A stretch of 40,496 nucleotides of DNA from a virus, in the IMG/VR virus record IMGVR_UViG_3300021090_000058, positions 1 through 40,496 of that record. One strand, given 5' to 3'. The notes under the pieces are model-generated. The model saw nothing but the letters and a program-made list of their open reading frames with translations. It was not told the DNA's origin and made no database searches. A program made the position numbers and the translations under genes. Of the stretch, positions 4,589 to 40,496 are shown in pieces (position 1 is the first letter of the stretch; each line of letters starts with the position of its first letter).

Positions 4589-4748
4589 AATCCTTTATTG
4601 GAGTTCCCCATAGTTTCTTTAAATCTTCTACACTCAATCCGGTGTAGCAAGCTGAGCACATCATTTTCCCATGTTCATCTCTTCTATCTTTATACAAACG
4701 ACCACATTCGCATATTTCTGGAACTATCGTCGTGGTTTTAATAGCCAT
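4548..4748 (-). CDS. Small zinc-ribbon-like protein
   Basis: The product is 66 aa with CECGRLYKDRRDEHGKMMCSAC, i.e. CxCG...CSAC, which is a likely treble-clef or ribbon zinc site. Start ATG 4748 overlaps the Rnl5 stop (TAATG). Its position after the two RNA ligases suggests an accessory, perhaps RNA-binding, role, but this is inference from neighbourhood only. Confidence 0.65.
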   Translation of the reverse strand: MAIKTTTIVPEICECGRLYKDRRDEHGKMMCSACYTGLSVEDLKKLWGTPIKDYDGFSKSSSPLPG

Positions 4749-5725
4749 TACTTCTCAAATCCCAGGTTGATTACTTTAAAGCTAATAGGCTTGTGCCCTT
4801 CAAGGTTTTCTTGAGATCGGATGACTACACCCTCTCTTTGTTTGCCGTTGGAATAGACTCCTTCACCTCGAGTTTCTAGCCCATGAGGAATGAAGCAGTG
4901 ACCCCATTCAATCATTCGAACCGTAGGGAATTTCAAACTGTCACTCAATGCGCGTAGTTCTTTAAATGTGAGATATCTCTTCTCTACGATGTGATAGCCT
5001 GAGAATAAGAAACCATCGATATCCTTGAGTCCCATTGGATTGCTTTGAATCCCAGGTCCACAAGTCTCCCATTGGATAGCAATACCATCAGGGAGATTGG
5101 GCTCTAACTGATATTTCTCTGAGACTTTCCAGTATCCATTGTCAGGATTCCTGACAAGCTCCAGATTCCTAGAGCAAATACCGAACTCTCCTTTCCAACG
5201 ATATGCAGTCGTTGAAGAGCCATCGGCTTTCTCAGTCATGTACCATGCTTTTCCAACCAAATTGTCCACCAATTCGGGATATCTCTGGTAATTTAGCTCG
5301 TCAGTCTTTGGAATGAAGTCTGGGAAGTTTCCTTTGGCGATTCCTTGCAGATGAGCAGGGACTGGTTTATGGTATTTGACAACCTGATAGTCAATTGTGA
5401 CATCTTTTCCTACATGAATACATCCGTCTCCAAGCCTGGTAAGAGTGATTAAAACCTCACTTGGCGCTCCCTTAAACCTTCTCATCTTAACTCGCCAATT
5501 AGAATCCTTCATGAAAGGGAGATATGAGTGAATTTCAGGATCTAATAAAGAATCGGGAAGGAAAACAATGCAATAATCATCAACATTAAAGTCAGCTTTC
5601 CTGACAATTCCCTTCCATTTGCCTCCTTCTCCACATACAACCGTAGCCGAGACAATGAAGTCTGCGCCTGGAATAGGCTCTAGATTGATGATCTTTCCTA
5701 CATAAACTAGGCCGTCTTTACTCAT
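4748..5725 (-). CDS. RNA ligase, DRB0094/Rnl5 type
   Basis: This ATP-dependent ligase joins 3'-OH and 5'-phosphate RNA ends. The 325-aa protein starts at ATG 5725 behind AAGGATTAGC. It has an N-terminal OB-like domain (YVGKIINLEPIPGADFI), a linker with PKTDE, then the nucleotidyltransferase domain: motif I EKADGSS with adenylated K166, CSRNLEL (184-190), motif IV EGVVIRS (298-304) and motif V SFKVIN (315-320). The OB-plus-ligase architecture is that of Deinococcus DRB0094. It overlaps the end of the RtcB coding unit closely, so both repair chemistries are co-expressed. Confidence 0.92.
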   Translation of the reverse strand: MSKDGLVYVGKIINLEPIPGADFIVSATVVCGEGGKWKGIVRKADFNVDDYCIVFLPDSLLDPEIHSYLPFMKDSNWRVKMRRFKGAPSEVLITLTRLGDGCIHVGKDVTIDYQVVKYHKPVPAHLQGIAKGNFPDFIPKTDELNYQRYPELVDNLVGKAWYMTEKADGSSTTAYRWKGEFGICSRNLELVRNPDNGYWKVSEKYQLEPNLPDGIAIQWETCGPGIQSNPMGLKDIDGFLFSGYHIVEKRYLTFKELRALSDSLKFPTVRMIEWGHCFIPHGLETRGEGVYSNGKQREGVVIRSQENLEGHKPISFKVINLGFEK

Positions 5726-5726
5726 G

Positions 5727-6911
5727 CTAATCCTTATATGGGTCAAATTCGCGTTCATCTGCCATACAAACGCCTATTGGGGTTAAAGTGTGTAGAATGT
5801 TGACTGTGGCTTTATGAGCCTCTAGGACCGATTCTATGCGTTTATAAGCGTATGGGCTTTCATCTAATCCGCTTCCTCGAACTTCCACCCCGACTCTCTT
5901 AATCCATTCATCGTGCGCTGATTTGGAGACAAGCCCTTCAGAGATTCTAGTTCCTGTTCGTCTATTGAATTTTCCTTTGGCTTGAGTTCTTCCCATTGCA
6001 CGGCCTGCACCATGGATTGTAGAGTACAACGCGGCTTGGGACTCGGGCTCCTCGACTCCTTCAAGAATGACCGATATATCTGCCATAGATCCCCCAACAA
6101 ACCCCTTTTGACCTGGGAAGGCCGGAGTTGCTCCCTTTCGTACCACCCAAAGATCTTTACCAAAATGTCGTTCTTTCCATGCGAAGTTATGGTGATTATG
6201 GATCGATTCAACAACATTTGCTCGTAAGATTCTAGCCACTCTTTCACATACCCAATCTCTGCCAGCGTAAGCATAGCGACCAGCAAGTTCCATACACTTA
6301 AGATATTGCTGTCCGAGGTCTGAATTTTCATTAAATATGACTGGCTCCGCATGAACCCCATCTTTTCCTCCTCCTACTTTGACGAAATGAGTCGCGATGC
6401 TGTGCCCCAGGCCACGAGATCCAAAATGAACTCCGACCCAAATTCGGCTTTGCTCATCAGTAAAGATATCAACATAGTGGTTGCCTCCTCCGACAGTACC
6501 CAGCTGATCTCTGGCTTTCTCTTTGAGTCCTTTGAGCAACTCAATTTCATCCCATGCTGGGTCATCGAACAACTCATGATCAACTTTTTCACTGTTTCTC
6601 CTTCCCATTCCGAAGCTTATGTGCTTTTGCACTTCATTCATCGTTCTATAGATGTTATCTTTAACCGACTGAACGCTACAATCCAGCAGCACTGCTTTAT
6701 TGCCACAAGCAATATCAAAACCCACCCCATTAACGTTGATATGGTTTTCATAACAAACCACACCTCCAACAGGAACGCTATAACCGATATGATGATCGGC
6801 CATAAGGGCAACGTAATCCGGTTTGATTTCATAATTCATTACCGCCTTCATTTGTTCTACTGCTTCTGGCAGTGCATCTCCCCATACTGGGATTCCGTCA
6901 ATCGTCTTCAT
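5727..6911 (-). CDS. rtcB: RNA-splicing ligase RtcB
   Basis: RtcB joins 2',3'-cyclic phosphate or 3'-phosphate ends to 5'-OH ends using GTP and Mn2+. The 394-aa product (ATG 6911) has the metal-binding GFDIACGN (D66, C69), GTVGGGNHY (N144, H145), HFGSRGLGH (H162, H170), HNFAWKE, RKGATPAFPGQKG, and the guanylylated-His motif TIHGAGRAMGR (H300). All catalytic motifs are present, so it should be active. Its stop is TAG. No archease gene is visible nearby. The pairing with an Rnl5-type ligase points to repair of tRNAs cut by host defence nucleases (inference). Confidence 0.95.
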   Translation of the reverse strand: MKTIDGIPVWGDALPEAVEQMKAVMNYEIKPDYVALMADHHIGYSVPVGGVVCYENHINVNGVGFDIACGNKAVLLDCSVQSVKDNIYRTMNEVQKHISFGMGRRNSEKVDHELFDDPAWDEIELLKGLKEKARDQLGTVGGGNHYVDIFTDEQSRIWVGVHFGSRGLGHSIATHFVKVGGGKDGVHAEPVIFNENSDLGQQYLKCMELAGRYAYAGRDWVCERVARILRANVVESIHNHHNFAWKERHFGKDLWVVRKGATPAFPGQKGFVGGSMADISVILEGVEEPESQAALYSTIHGAGRAMGRTQAKGKFNRRTGTRISEGLVSKSAHDEWIKRVGVEVRGSGLDESPYAYKRIESVLEAHKATVNILHTLTPIGVCMADEREFDPYKD

Positions 6912-7128
6912 CTTGTTCTGCCTCTTTAGGTATTGGTCCTTCCTGGATTGCAGTAACGTGGACCCCATAAGTTGGGTTGTTATTCATGTGATTGTGCCAT
7001 ATCCAAGCAGCCTTAATATCATCCACTATTTCAATCTGAATCGTTAATACTCTTCCCATTCCTACCAAGCCATTTTCTTCTGTTTCTGGTCTTACAATCA
7101 CACCAATACTTTCCTTCCCAGTGTCCAT
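6898..7128 (-). CDS. Hypothetical 76-aa acidic protein upstream of rtcB
   Basis: The frame has a beta-rich start (IGVIVRPETEENG ... LTIQIEIVDDIKAAWIWHNHM) and an acidic tail (EAEQDEDD). It overlaps the rtcB start by 14 nt. The ATG at 7128 has AGAGG directly abutting it, so a downstream GTG with GGAAAG may be the true start. No family is recognised. Too short for archease. Confidence 0.55.
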   Translation of the reverse strand: MDTGKESIGVIVRPETEENGLVGMGRVLTIQIEIVDDIKAAWIWHNHMNNNPTYGVHVTAIQEGPIPKEAEQDEDD

Positions 7129-7591: not shown

Positions 7592-8248
7592 CTAACATAC
7601 ATCCAACATACATTTACTGTATACAAAATCATAAAGGGCATTCATTTCATGAATTGCCTTCTTATCTTGAACTTTCATCTCGGTTACACTTAATCCATCG
7701 CTTGCAGCGTTAGCAAAAGCCTTGCGGCATCCAATGGTGACTGGAATACATTTGATTTCTTCACACTCTTCCAGAATACTCTGGGAACCTTCGTTATCGG
7801 AACCCTTAGCATCGGCTTGATTGATGAATGCAAAGACTTTGAGGTTTGGATTGGCTGGCTTCATTTCGGCGACTACTGCCTTTACATCTCCAAGAGTCCA
7901 GATGTCTAGCGATCTTGGCTTGAAAGGAACGATACAGACGTCAGCTATTGAAAGAGACGCACGAAGAGACGTAGTTTCTCTTCCACCCACATCAATAATA
8001 ATATCATCGTAATCATCCTTCATCCTTTGAAGCTGAGAGCGCAATGCTTTTCCTCCGAAACTGACGGTTGTCCACTTTGTTTCAATCCCCAACACATCTC
8101 TTTGATTCGCCCAAATCGTTGTAGATCTTTGCTCATCTGCATCAACTAGTAAGAGTTTCTTACCTGTTGCAGCTCTCATTACCGCAAGATTCGTGGCTAT
8201 AGTGGTTTTACCCGTTCCACCCTTCACTCCAGCTATCATGACTATCAT
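7592..8248 (-). CDS. parA: ParA-type partition ATPase
   Basis: This Walker-type ATPase moves or positions plasmid copies on the nucleoid. The 218-aa product starts at ATG 8248, preceded by GGAGGTGTAT; the open frame upstream only translates the repeat array. It has the deviant Walker A KGGTGKTT (9-16), LLLVDADEQRSTT (Walker A'/switch) and DDIIIDVGG (Walker B-like). The length is that of short ParA proteins lacking an N-terminal HTH, which usually pair with RHH partners. The stop is TAG. The arrays on both sides suggest autoregulation. Confidence 0.92.
   Translation of the reverse strand: MIVMIAGVKGGTGKTTIATNLAVMRAATGKKLLLVDADEQRSTTIWANQRDVLGIETKWTTVSFGGKALRSQLQRMKDDYDDIIIDVGGRETTSLRASLSIADVCIVPFKPRSLDIWTLGDVKAVVAEMKPANPNLKVFAFINQADAKGSDNEGSQSILEECEEIKCIPVTIGCRKAFANAASDGLSVTEMKVQDKKAIHEMNALYDFVYSKCMLDVC
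7595..7623. repeat. Partition-site-like repeats between parA and its partner
   Basis: The 8-mer ACATACAT occurs at 7595-7602 and 7606-7613, and an inverted variant (ACTGTATA) lies at 7616-7623. The spacing is about 11 bp, one helical turn. A further ATATACAT lies at 7540-7547. The array overlaps the last codons of parA. It repeats the element found upstream of parA at 8259-8310. Confidence 0.7.
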
Positions 8249-8258
8249 ATACACCTCC

Positions 8259-8398: not shown

Positions 8399-8400
8399 AT

Positions 8401-8472
8401 CGGGCTATCATGGAGTTGAACCATGGCTTCCTCCGTGACAGGGAGGCGTGACTACCGCTGCACTAATAGCCC
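8401..8472 (-). tRNA. tRNA-Asp(GUC)
   Basis: The acceptor GGGCTAT/ATAGCCC pairs perfectly. A D arm with AGCGGTAG loop follows. The anticodon arm is CCTCC-CTGTCAC-GGAGG with anticodon GTC. The variable loop AAGC is short, and the T arm is CATGG-TTCAACT-CCATG. The discriminator is G, as expected for Asp, and CCA is not encoded. It is 72 nt long. It lies between the partition locus and a small-gene operon. Confidence 0.93.
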
Positions 8473-8476
8473 AAAA

Positions 8477-14949: not shown

Positions 14950-15261
14950 TTAGAACGGTATTTCTTCATCCATTGAGCTGGATGTTGTTTTTGCGCCTTT
15001 CTTTTCCCATGAACGATCATCGAGATATTTCTTGATGTCCTTCTCTAGGTAAGCGCTGTCTTGAAGATAAGATTCGTAGTAATTCTTAACTCCATCTTTG
15101 GTGACTGCTACACTTGAAACGCCCCAGAATTGACCACCGTTCTTCGCTTGCTTACGAACGAATGCGACTCTCGCTGGGACATTGAGCTCAAGATACACGA
15201 GCTCTTTTGTGTATTGATCTTCAGGGAATTCTTCATGAGATACAAATTTGATAGTTGACAT
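14950..15261 (-). CDS. SSB-like single-strand DNA-binding protein
   Basis: The 103-aa protein ends in SSSMDEEIPF, which closely matches the acidic C-terminal tip (DDDIPF) by which bacterial SSBs recruit partners. The body (ELVYLELNVPARVAFVRK ... FWGVSSVAVTKDG) is beta-rich, as expected for an OB fold, though it is not a standard SSB sequence. The start has AAGGAAAC upstream. It lies just downstream of the helicase loader in the replication operon, which supports the role. Confidence 0.65.
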   Translation of the reverse strand: MSTIKFVSHEEFPEDQYTKELVYLELNVPARVAFVRKQAKNGGQFWGVSSVAVTKDGVKNYYESYLQDSAYLEKDIKKYLDDRSWEKKGAKTTSSSMDEEIPF

Positions 15262-15275
15262 ATGTTTCCTTTTGT

Positions 15276-16118
15276 TTATAAAACTGTTGGTTTTCTTCTT
15301 GATTTATCTTTAAATTCAAATAACTGCCCTGTTCTAATTCTATCATTCAAAGCATTCCCGCAATAATTGGAGAAATCTTTGTCATTTAGATTAGTTGTGA
15401 TAATGGTTCCCCTGTTACTCCACTGCATGCGAGTGTTAATCACATCCATGAAGAAACTCATGAAACCAGAGGAAACTTCGCCGGTTCCAAAGTCATCAAT
15501 GACTAGGAGATTGCAGCTAGTGACTCGATCAATGAAATTACTTACCCTATCGGACTTGAAAGTGTCTAACCAGTCGTTAAGCATTTGCTTTTGGGTGGTG
15601 AAGATGGCCGATGTATTCTTGCGAGTGAATAACTCACAAACCGCCATGCTTGCATAGGTCTTTCCAGATCCTGGGGTGCCCTGCATGAAAATGATCCCGC
15701 AAGGTTTAATACCAAACTTGAGTAGATAATCAATTTTACCGGCCGATTGTTCAATCTTCTCAAACTTGACATCATGATGTAGGTCTCCAATACCGTTTAT
15801 TTCGCAGAATTTGGCCCATTCCAGGGCTCTTTGTGGCACGGGGGTAGTAAGGGTACCAACATAGTGCTTTTTCTTCGTGTAGACGTCGCAAAGCGTGTTG
15901 GCGCACAACCACACTCTTTTGTCTGAGGAGGCAGGGTCTAGATAAGGAGTGTAATGAGAATTGCCTCCACAATATCCGCACTCGTATTCATGCGAAGGGA
16001 CGGGATTTGGCATAAGATGAGGGCCTGCTGGGCTCATGACGTAATCGCATAGAACCAGCTTAAACTCACCCTTCATTGTCTCAAGCGTAGTTTCGCAGAT
16101 GGAACTAAGTGTTTTCAT
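15276..16118 (-). CDS. DnaC/IstB-type helicase loader ATPase
   Basis: This AAA+ protein should load the host replicative helicase. From ATG 16118 (ATGA overlap with rep, GAGGGC ribosome site) it has 280 aa. An N-terminal zinc knuckle has C47xxC50 and C72/C77. A Walker A QGTPGSGKT (146-154), Walker B LLVIDD (204-209) and sensor TIITTNLN follow. The zinc knuckle is a phage-type addition to the DnaC fold. Direct coupling to Rep indicates a Rep-loader pair, as in lambda O/P-like systems. Confidence 0.9.
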   Translation of the reverse strand: MKTLSSICETTLETMKGEFKLVLCDYVMSPAGPHLMPNPVPSHEYECGYCGGNSHYTPYLDPASSDKRVWLCANTLCDVYTKKKHYVGTLTTPVPQRALEWAKFCEINGIGDLHHDVKFEKIEQSAGKIDYLLKFGIKPCGIIFMQGTPGSGKTYASMAVCELFTRKNTSAIFTTQKQMLNDWLDTFKSDRVSNFIDRVTSCNLLVIDDFGTGEVSSGFMSFFMDVINTRMQWSNRGTIITTNLNDKDFSNYCGNALNDRIRTGQLFEFKDKSRRKPTVL

Positions 16119-17095
16119 AGAGCCCTCTTCTTCATATCTTCCATGCATTCAAGTGCCGCATTTTGATCAGAGCTAGGAGCAAACTTGCGTTCTCTTTTAG
16201 GTTGCTCGGGTTTAGCGAGCATCTTCATCTCAAGCTGATCAAACTTTTCACGCAGATATTTAGCCGGATTGGGCTTGAACATCTTGTCTGCCCAAAAGGA
16301 GTCTGATAAAGCCCAGTTGAAAACATCCATTGTCTTGTCAGCTTCACGCTTATCGAGTCGCAGGAGAAAGTCTACCTCAGTGAGAAATGCACTTAGGTTT
16401 TTGGAAGGAAGATAGTCCGGCTTTGTGCGAGTAAGAGAGTTGATCATCTGATTGCCAACCTCACGAACCTTAGGCGAGAAGTCTGGCTTTTCTCTTTTAG
16501 GCTTTGGAGAAGGTTTAACTTCCATCTCAGCAGCTTTAGCTGCGTTATCCCCATTTGCCTGTTTGGGCAATTCAGGAACCTTTAAGGAGGAGTTAGATTC
16601 TTTAGGATAGTCTTTCTTAGAACTATAGTCTTTCTTAATGTGCGGAAAACCAGGGCCCTGGTCACCAGTATCCTGGTTTTCAGTATGCTGGATAACTTTT
16701 TTGAATTTTGGGGATTCTGAGACAATGTAACGAAAACCTTTTAGAGTCCCCCCGTTTGGATTCTTTCGAGCATAGTCTTCTCTTTTTATGTAGCCTGCAT
16801 TAATTCCTTCATTGAAAAGAGCATGAACTTTATCTCTTCCCATGTGAGGCTTTAAATGATTAATTACCTGCTGGACGTTGATTTTCCATCCCTCTTTATT
16901 AGACAGCAAATAGATCACTAGCCAGCGGCATTCTGGGGAGATGGATACATCTCTAATCAAAGCATTGCTTACGACAGAAAATCGATATCCCTCATCTTGC
17001 GGACATCTTTGAATTGTATCTGTGTCGGGAAAGCCGGATATGGAAGATTCTTCGTTGACGGGTAAAGCTTCATTAGCTATAATTGGGTCAGACAT
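16115..17095 (-). CDS. Replication initiator-like protein (Rep)
   Basis: The 326-aa protein starts at ATG 17095 with AGAGG four bases upstream; the longer open frame overlaps the upstream gene and is not used. Residues about 30-120 (FSVVSNALIRDVSISPECRW ... INHLKPHMGRDKVHALFNEG) form a winged-helix DNA-binding domain of phage replisome organisers. A Lys/Pro-rich linker follows, and then a C-terminal helical domain (FNWALSDSFWADK ... PAKYLREKFDQL) of the type that meets helicase loaders. Its start region is covered by a plus-strand antisense RNA candidate (17090-17163), suggesting copy-number control. Confidence 0.82.
   Translation of the reverse strand: MSDPIIANEALPVNEESSISGFPDTDTIQRCPQDEGYRFSVVSNALIRDVSISPECRWLVIYLLSNKEGWKINVQQVINHLKPHMGRDKVHALFNEGINAGYIKREDYARKNPNGGTLKGFRYIVSESPKFKKVIQHTENQDTGDQGPGFPHIKKDYSSKKDYPKESNSSLKVPELPKQANGDNAAKAAEMEVKPSPKPKREKPDFSPKVREVGNQMINSLTRTKPDYLPSKNLSAFLTEVDFLLRLDKREADKTMDVFNWALSDSFWADKMFKPNPAKYLREKFDQLEMKMLAKPEQPKRERKFAPSSDQNAALECMEDMKKRAL
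17055..17083 (+). promoter_or_regulatory. Near-consensus sigma70 promoter of the antisense RNA
   Basis: TTGACG (17055-17060), a 17-nt spacer, and TATAAT (17078-17083) on the plus strand. It is the best sigma70-like match I found in the window. It lies inside the first codons of rep and points away from rep, towards the leader. Confidence 0.8.
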
Positions 17096-17163
17096 TATAC
17101 CTCTGTTTTTTGGGTTATGTTGTTTAATGCCAGTTTTCGTTTGCCCAACGACTGGCATTTTTT
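17090..17163 (+). ncRNA. Candidate antisense RNA to rep translation start
   Basis: The predicted RNA of about 74 nt starts 6-8 nt after TATAAT and ends in an intrinsic terminator. It is fully complementary to the rep mRNA leader, including the start codon (17095-17093) and AGAGG ribosome site (complement of 17099-17103), up to the end of the upstream gene at 17166. This is the layout of plasmid counter-transcribed RNAs that set copy number. The matching hairpin in the mRNA would carry a loop around TTGGGCA, which contains a YUNR-like turn. There is no direct expression evidence. Confidence 0.7.
17126..17163 (+). terminator. Intrinsic terminator of the antisense RNA
   Basis: AATGCCAGT (17126-17134) pairs with ACTGGCATT (17151-17159), with an inner CGTT/AACG extension and TGCCC loop. 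It is followed by a T6 run (17158-17163) on the plus strand. On the minus strand no T tract follows, so it terminates plus-strand transcription only. Confidence 0.75.
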
Positions 17164-17165
17164 GT

Positions 17166-17504
17166 TTAGCCTTCATTTTTACGCTTCCTTGCGTACTCTT
17201 TGTAGTACTCAGGGTACTTTTCACGGAATTTGCGGCGATATTCCGCAAACTTGTCTTTGTTCTTGGAATAGTAATCGACCATGTAAGAACGTTGCTGTTC
17301 ATCATCAACGAAGCGATGTTTCCAAGCTTTAACTCGTTTTTGATAACGCACGTTCTTACGTATGGTGCACATTTTGCATTCGCTTCGCCACTTGCCTTGG
17401 CACATGTAAAAGTCCATATGTGCGATTTTCGCACAATTGCACTTACTGCATATCTTGAGGTCGTTATTCACAACTACCTCCACAAAAATATGAGTCGTCT
17501 TCAT
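17166..17504 (-). CDS. Zinc-knuckle HNH-like protein (112 aa)
   Basis: The N-terminal part has CSKCNCAKIAHMDFY...W..CKMCTIRKNVRYQKR, i.e. two CxxC pairs about 20 residues apart. This is the zinc stub seen in many phage HNH or endonuclease VII-like proteins. The C-terminal half is very basic and aromatic (YSKNKDKFAEYRRKFREKY). No clear HNH catalytic triad is seen, so nuclease activity is doubtful and DNA or RNA binding is safer. It lies in the replication operon before rep. Confidence 0.65.
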   Translation of the reverse strand: MKTTHIFVEVVVNNDLKICSKCNCAKIAHMDFYMCQGKWRSECKMCTIRKNVRYQKRVKAWKHRFVDDEQQRSYMVDYYSKNKDKFAEYRRKFREKYPEYYKEYARKRKNEG

Positions 17505-38674: not shown

Positions 38675-40496
38675 CTATTGTTTAAGGGCTTCTGCCCGTT
38701 TCATGTCCTTCTGCAATTCGACCTCTGTCGCTTGCTTCTCTTGCATCCGAATTTCAGATGCGAGCTTTAGTACCTCGATTAATCGTTTTCGAGGAATGTC
38801 TTCAATCTGCGCAATCGTCTTAGCGTTATCAAGGAACGCCTTAGCGTGGTTTTGCGTGACTTCAGACTCACGTTCTTTTGCCAAACCAATATCAGCCAGT
38901 ACTCTTGCTCTACGTTCTTCTGCGAGTGCTGTTGATTGATTAACAGCAGCCATATCAAGCATTTTCTGCATTTGGGCGGCTTCTTGTTCGACAGCGGCAG
39001 CTTGTTGAGCAGCCTCGGCTTGTTGCCTCATTATTTCATGCAGCTTGGTGCTTCCCTGTAGTGGAGCAACTGCCAAGATATCTGGCCATGGGATCGGAGC
39101 GCCTAAAGCTACGAGTTGCAGCAACTGGTAGTAGTATGCTTCTCTTTGTGTAGATGTCTTAACTGCCTGTTTAATAGCACAGTCATATTCTTCAAATTGA
39201 CCCGAGAAGAATTCTTCTGTGGGCTCTTCTCCTATGATTCTTTGGATCTTCCCAGGAGAGTAGTTCTTTTGGATGCACTCGATTACAAGCTTTCCAAGAT
39301 ATTTCTTGGATTGCTCGAGATTATCGAAGATTCCTCTGTTGCCTTTGAGGCCGTTTGAGGCTCTAACTTCTGCGAGTTTCCCTGACACTTGGCTGTCACC
39401 AACAGCAGAAAGACCAAGCAACTCATCAGACGCACCAGGGATTTCCATGATGTTTTTGTCGATGATGTCTTGGTATTGGAGGTATCCAGGTGGAATGTTT
39501 GGAGGAGAGATTTCCCGAACGTCTGCGTTGACATCATAGCCCTCATTGACGACGATTTGTTTACCCTGACCTGCTTGCATTAGCATGTTAGGATCTAATA
39601 CTGCGCCATTCTTGGTGATCCAGCCTGTATTGATTATCGATTCCATGAGGTCGATTATCTGGCTATGGCGTCTGTTATATTGTCTTTGAGCATCAATTAC
39701 CGATCGGACGATCCCCTGTATCTTGAGCTCGAACGTGTCTATTAATGGTTCGTGGTAAAGTAACACGGGAATGAAAGGGTAATTATCTAGGCCTGTAGGA
39801 TCAGGACCAGTATATAAAAGTTGCCCAGAAACGATAATATTAAGCTCCACCGATCGCTTGTGAGAATTGATAAACTCAATTCTGGGAGCCTCACCCATTT
39901 CAGCCCTTCGTGCAGCTTCTTCCCTAAGTTCAGCTTTGAGAGCCCTTTCCTCTTGAGCATCGCCATTCCATTCCTCCGTCACTCCTGTTTCCATGTCGAC
40001 AAGGTACTTCTGAACTTTGTTGATTCGCTTCCAATATTGGTCGTAGGTGCAGAGGTTTTTAGCGATGTAAGTAGAGTTGTATTGTCTATAGATTCCCAAG
40101 TATTGATACTTGTTATCTCGAATCCCAGTAGGTAGATTATCGATGACTGTAGGATCTACCCATGGAAGCATAGACTTAATTTGTTCTTTAGAGAGAAGAT
40201 CACGGGTTGAAGCCTGGTCACAATCACTGAGATCTCGCTTAGTAAAGTAGGGATCTAACATCAGTGCGTTGAATGGCTTCCAGTACATTTTGATGTCGCC
40301 ATTCACTTTGTCCCTTGAATAGTCCATGTAGAGACCGATGATTGACAATCCAGTCTTAAGACTATGCTCAAAGGCTTCAGATACTATGTAGTCTGCGTTT
40401 GCTTTATCGTAGACGTAATACATGATGTCAGAGAACTGATCTGCTGTTTTAACATCTGATCCCTCAACAGGGGTGCAAACCGTGGCAGTGCGGTTC
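38675..40496 (-). CDS. Portal protein, main part (continues at the left end)
   Basis: The dodecameric portal is the DNA entry and exit channel. This part covers residues about 81-687 of the 687-aa protein. Conserved-looking stretches are KPFNALMLDPYFTKRDLSDC, LYTGPDPTGLDNYPFIPVLL, RQYNRRHSQIIDLMESIINT and ASDELLGLSAVGDSQVSGKL. The C-terminal 120 residues are a long Ala/Gln/Glu helix (QAAAVEQEAAQMQKMLDMAA), as in the P22 portal barrel. The size agrees with P22-like portals. The gene is split only by the contig ends. Confidence 0.9.
   Translation of the reverse strand, partial: NRTATVCTPVEGSDVKTADQFSDIMYYVYDKANADYIVSEAFEHSLKTGLSIIGLYMDYSRDKVNGDIKMYWKPFNALMLDPYFTKRDLSDCDQASTRDLLSKEQIKSMLPWVDPTVIDNLPTGIRDNKYQYLGIYRQYNSTYIAKNLCTYDQYWKRINKVQKYLVDMETGVTEEWNGDAQEERALKAELREEAARRAEMGEAPRIEFINSHKRSVELNIIVSGQLLYTGPDPTGLDNYPFIPVLLYHEPLIDTFELKIQGIVRSVIDAQRQYNRRHSQIIDLMESIINTGWITKNGAVLDPNMLMQAGQGKQIVVNEGYDVNADVREISPPNIPPGYLQYQDIIDKNIMEIPGASDELLGLSAVGDSQVSGKLAEVRASNGLKGNRGIFDNLEQSKKYLGKLVIECIQKNYSPGKIQRIIGEEPTEEFFSGQFEEYDCAIKQAVKTSTQREAYYYQLLQLVALGAPIPWPDILAVAPLQGSTKLHEIMRQQAEAAQQAAAVEQEAAQMQKMLDMAAVNQSTALAEERRARVLADIGLAKERESEVTQNHAKAFLDNAKTIAQIEDIPRKRLIEVLKLASEIRMQEKQATEVELQKDMKRAEALKQ
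40365..40496. repeat. Right copy of contig-end overlap
   Basis: It is identical to 1-131 apart from one extra A at 40370-40372. It keeps the portal frame intact and is taken as the correct version. The overlap is best read as evidence of circular or permuted DNA. Confidence 0.93.

Follow-up and report, generated by a model that had tools for sequence, protein, structure and literature searches.

The start of the replication initiator gene (rep) in the phage genome analysed here (the window: the whole stretch of 40,496 nucleotides) is covered by a conserved, predicted antisense transcription unit: a promoter within the first codons of rep, directed against the gene, followed by a short RNA with its own terminator. 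The unit has outlasted swaps of rep itself, a sign that it may govern the timing or the amount of phage replication. Our preferred interpretation, which we think probable, is a cis-antisense unit of the lambda pO/oop kind, most likely lowering Rep synthesis and so setting replication from an origin inside rep.

Genomic setting of rep

Portal, large terminase and major head protein genes define the window as the genome of a tailed phage of ∼40 kb. Part of the portal gene is encoded twice, at 1–373 and at 38675–40496, the two ends of the window, so the contig is likely to be a circle or to have terminal redundancy. The rep gene (16115–17095, minus strand) encodes an O-like/DnaD-like replication initiator of 326 aa, identified by matches to PHROGs families (phrog_2514, 2e-13; phrog_391, 9e-10); searches of Pfam, NCBIfam and solved structures returned no match for it. 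It overlaps by 4 nt the gene for a DnaC-like helicase loader (15276–16118, minus strand; phrog_50, 6e-29; Pfam IstB), and genes for an Erf-like annealing protein, an exonuclease and RusA are found close by. Upstream of rep is an open reading frame (17166–17504, minus strand) for a cysteine-rich protein of 112 aa, for which Pfam, PHROGs and NCBIfam gave no matches and nothing CII-like; its stop abuts the antisense terminator. Elsewhere the window carries a tRNA-Asp gene (8400–8473) and, at 4748–6968, an RNA ligase beside an RtcB-like ligase, a possible RNA repair pair.

Inside rep lie palindromic repeats of the CCAGNNNNCTGG type with 15-nt spacing (16646–16698), candidate origin iterons for which an equal array was seen in 0 of 100 shuffles. 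The same region of rep holds similar arrays, made of other sequences, in L099, L103, L115, L125 and L126, that is, in at least six phages including the window; the repeat-finding script missed lambda's own iterons and is thus insensitive, so that its silence on the other relatives means little. We infer that the repeats inside rep are the replication origin.

The antisense promoter, RNA and terminator

The promoter, TTGACG-17-TATAAT (17055–17083, plus strand), falls within rep codons 5–14. Its boxes were read directly: the −35 occupies 17055–17060 and the −10 occupies 17078–17083, with a 17-nt spacer. Scoring 11/12, it is the top site between 12000 and 22000, on the basis of sigma-70-type boxes whose use by the sigma factor of the window's host is assumed. 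With a start placed 7 nt past the −10, the predicted RNA extends for ∼74 nt (17090–17163, plus strand) and ends in an intrinsic terminator (17126–17163, plus strand) recognised as an inverted repeat and by its fold: the stem arms, 17126–17134 and 17151–17159, form 9 bp and are 100% complementary, and a T6 run occupies 17158–17163. These elements had been named in the original prediction; every coordinate given there was right, as were the RNA length, the stem and the T run.

The prediction had further proposed that the RNA would be complementary to the rep start codon, the ribosome site and the leader up to the upstream gene, and by sequence it is. The rep ATG lies at 17093–17095 (minus strand) and is served by the ribosome site AGAGG; the predicted RNA is complementary to rep codons 1 and 2, hence to the start codon, and to the ribosome site and the leader. 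Its end at 17163 leaves 2 nt before the stop of the upstream gene (17166–17168), so that the two do not overlap. Folding of the 75-nt RNA is 4.1 sd better than that of shuffles, mostly because of the terminator hairpin. At the Rfam gathering threshold a tRNA is the only feature of the window to score, and the antisense RNA falls in no family. Two other uses of these sites were ruled out: a plus-strand protein expressed from the promoter, because the terminator breaks the sole notable open reading frame, and a sense-strand terminator, because the T run is absent after the hairpin on that strand.

By itself the promoter is not unusual. An 11/12 match is expected about once per window by chance, and the window contains two distinct sites scoring at least 11/12 against a shuffle mean of 0.9. 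The combination of a promoter scoring at least 10/12 with a terminator within 130 nt occurs once in the window and on average 0.03 times in shuffles; with an 11/12 promoter it occurred in none of 60 shuffles. The other 11/12 site, TTGACA-16-TATAAA (15255–15282, plus strand), is located at the start of the gene at 14950–15261 and has no terminator downstream; the ATGTCA context of a start codon yields such −35 boxes.

Conservation among related phages

Related regions were found in 20 uncultivated viral records, giving 21 phages with the window. The relatives were recovered via the DnaC-like protein and neighbouring genes, 13 of them via the neighbouring genes with no regard to the promoter; rep alone as query retrieved none. 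The Rep proteins compared are 22–39% identical to that of the window over their full length. Several of the relatives' records are fragmentary, and in some the start codon was set by hand. Searched genome contigs yielded distant DnaC-type ATPases alone and no prophage of the window's kind, and in phage and plasmid collections all matches were partial and below 60% identity. In five cultured or named phages with DnaC-like genes (L143–L147) the promoter–terminator unit was absent at the gene examined, the position of the initiator being assumed in some.

At the rep start, TTGAC recurs in 17 of the 21 phages and the spacer measures 17 nt in 15 of these; 11 of the 13 relatives fetched through neighbouring genes have it. 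A promoter scoring at least 10/12 is found at 13 of 21 rep starts (10 of 18 without L115, L136 and L127, where the start was placed by hand near the motif) as against 3.6% of 304 other gene starts at the same loci (Fisher 7e-12, a value that overstates independence given that the records are interrelated); the strict motif TTGAC-N18-[TC]A...T occurs at 13 of 21 rep starts and at 3 of the 304 others. A clear promoter at the rep start is missing from L007, L104 and L118. In L006 the only site is weaker (TTGATT-16-TACAAT) and sits in the leader; L099 combines TTGAC with a poor −10 (TAAGCT); and L101, L106, L115 and L127 depart from the strict motif in one feature, either the −10 or the spacer.

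Of the 21 phages, 17 have a same-strand terminator no more than 420 nt away, or 19 if the weaker ones of L101 and L125 are counted; the background rate is 0.12 per kb. In most phages no more than 15 nt separate the hairpin from the upstream stop, and the hairpin sequence varies from phage to phage. Relatives that retain rep were examined for loss of promoter and terminator, which would have spoken against the original prediction; most keep both. As for covariation of the hairpin, also suggested there as a check, L009 and L095 have a common hairpin loop, GGCGTTGTAAC, and three stem pairs altered on both sides, the pattern expected under selection for the hairpin; this pair alone is cited, a formal count over all hairpins having been left out because they had been chosen as paired.

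In some phages the leader between the antisense terminator and rep is enlarged by tandem ribosome-site-plus-start units (L095, 3205–3420; L005, 3425–3650; L101, 4917–4995; also L126 and L111). Those of L095 include four chained mini-ORFs, each stop overlapping the next ATG (ATGA) and the last overlapping rep.

Two pairs of phages show what happens to the promoter when rep itself changes. In L103 and L105 the first nine codons, from the ATG to GTC-AAG, are nearly alike, and from the outer edge of the −35 onward the two belong to different rep types. L009 and L095 have the promoter segment in the form of a 22-codon leader ORF (MNIPILANKALPVN... in L009) whose stop overlaps the start of the replaced rep. 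The predicted promoter thus persists where the N-terminal domain of rep was replaced.

Mode of action and alternatives

Promoter, terminator, position and persistence are features of sequence and conservation, and from them we infer transcription, pairing, the direction of the effect and the position of the origin. A sigma-70-type promoter in the first rep codons would produce a short RNA that ends at its own terminator and is complementary to the leader of rep. Pairing of this RNA with the leader would block ribosomes or invite RNase III, leading to less Rep; antisense transcription would also converge on the rep operon and lower Rep further. The lower level of Rep would then set the strength of replication start at the origin inside rep. 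As the predicted RNA of the window hardly reaches beyond the rep leader, a pairing-based drop in Rep is the first choice.

The main rival, possible if unlikely, is that transcription from the promoter counts rather than the RNA: it would converge on the operon and tune the passage of polymerase through the origin inside rep, as reported for lambda, where pO reduces pR transcription and its loss lowers plasmid and phage replication (PMC3985674). The position of the promoter is nearly fixed across the phages, whereas the RNA varies widely, from roughly 45 to 330 nt, and its sequence is not conserved; what matters may therefore be the activity of the promoter and not the RNA, and the candidate iterons inside rep point the same way. 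Also against the preferred interpretation, the −10 of L103, L105, L125 and L126 is placed at offset −3 relative to the rep start, and the RNA would begin near the ribosome site, leaving the start codon uncovered. However, the terminator is held near the upstream stop and the RNA would cover the whole leader, neither of which interference alone needs. Variable RNA length thus favours transcription and the kept terminator position favours the RNA; pairing and transcriptional interference can work together.

A target in the upstream gene, on the model of OOP, which in lambda is an antisense RNA to cII (PMC5869508), seems improbable. The order of genes is the same (upstream gene, antisense unit, initiator), and in L007, L009 and L125 the terminator does overlap the upstream stop. 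Against this, there is little or no overlap in most relatives and none in the window, and the upstream protein lacks a CII-like match.

Still less credible is the notion that a conserved N-terminal peptide of Rep, LPVN, spells the −35 by accident and that the hairpin is unrelated. The peptide is conserved in most Reps and accounts for part of the promoter score, but in L009 and L095 the motif is outside the rep ORF. Where the neighbouring residues vary (QVN, CVN, SVN, NVN, PVK), the Val codon is always GTC: it is GTC in 16 of the 16 phages having the motif, as against 18% of Val codons overall, the motif being recognised partly from DNA. Nor would a peptide account for a −10 at 17 nt followed by a terminator. 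With the peptides held fixed and synonymous codons drawn, the codons favour the promoter (combined P 3e-4); the signal is modest, so LPVN may also be under protein selection. That promoter-like and terminator-like sites came together by chance is hardly tenable: a lone promoter match is expected in the window, but the pairing is conserved in relatives, which refutes chance as far as sequence allows.

Relation to known systems

Plasmid rep genes have counter-transcribed RNAs, CopA of R1 being one example, and it was this kind of control that the original prediction envisaged. The predicted RNA is like them in its complementarity to the rep leader and ribosome site and in its hairpin with terminator. 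This part of the proposal stands: there is a predicted antisense unit over the rep start, conserved beyond chance. The suggestion of a plasmid replication switch built into a phage is not supported: the initiator matches phage O-like and DnaD-like families and not a plasmid Rep, a DnaC-like loader adjoins it, and repeats lie inside rep. Copy-number control as such may or may not operate here. ParA-like genes are present in just 3 of the 21 genomes, several of which are ∼40 kb and probably near complete: the window (7592–8251), L004 and L095. Nothing, therefore, links the antisense unit to partition genes or plasmid life.

Heinrich and co-workers (1995, cited in PMC9948254) reportedly described an antisense RNA of the P1 lytic replicon. 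It too belongs to a phage replication operon, with the origin thought to be inside the rep gene; RepL is a different protein, and the likeness is a general one.

The most extensive likeness is to lambda pO/oop. The lambda sequence, compared directly, has pO as TTGAGT-17-CATAAT overlapping the start of O, with its −10 at offset −3, identical to that of L103, L105, L125 and L126; OOP RNA is 77 nt, with its terminator within cII, and four iterons lie inside O. In both cases a promoter convergent with the initiator operon, with a 17-nt spacer, sits over the first codons of the initiator and gives (in the window, by prediction) a short RNA with its own terminator; in both the initiator gene carries internal repeats and is followed by a gene for a helicase loader. 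For the window, the phrog_391 match and the palindromic repeats, to which Rep may bind, suggest an O-type initiator with iterons. The promoter is also at the edge of exchanged replication modules, just as pO in lambdoid phages adjoins replication genes that have been swapped (PMC3349717). The differences concern mainly cII. Complementarity to the 3′-end of cII is lacking, the upstream gene being not CII-like; OOP overlaps 55 nt of cII, whereas the predicted RNA of the window stops before the upstream gene and, unlike OOP, would lie over the start codon and ribosome site of the initiator itself. The hairpins are unrelated, and the 20-nt core of the 33-bp pO/oop box of lambdoid phages has no match in the window with up to three mismatches allowed. 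The sequence is too short for judging common descent with pO.

A limited literature search found no papers on such units outside lambdoid phages, and to our knowledge OOP has been studied almost solely in that group. Whether the OOP promoter serves cII control or replication is debated. Here a distant group with no recognisable cII has the same promoter position and a terminator, and in the window an RNA predicted to lie over the initiator start; this argues for a role in initiator or origin control that is either older or separate. Tentatively, and with what we would put at just short of an even chance, an independent phage lineage has evolved or kept an OOP-like unit that targets the initiator itself: a modular controller that stays put while initiator domains and origins swap behind it, with leader peptides left as relics and, in certain phages, a chain of duplicated start sites under the RNA. 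The regulatory element also seems to hold constant a peptide motif of Rep, whose gene it overlaps. Judged by its predicted parts, the unit has pO/oop as its closest known system: alike in anatomy, and not a member by the features linked to cII.
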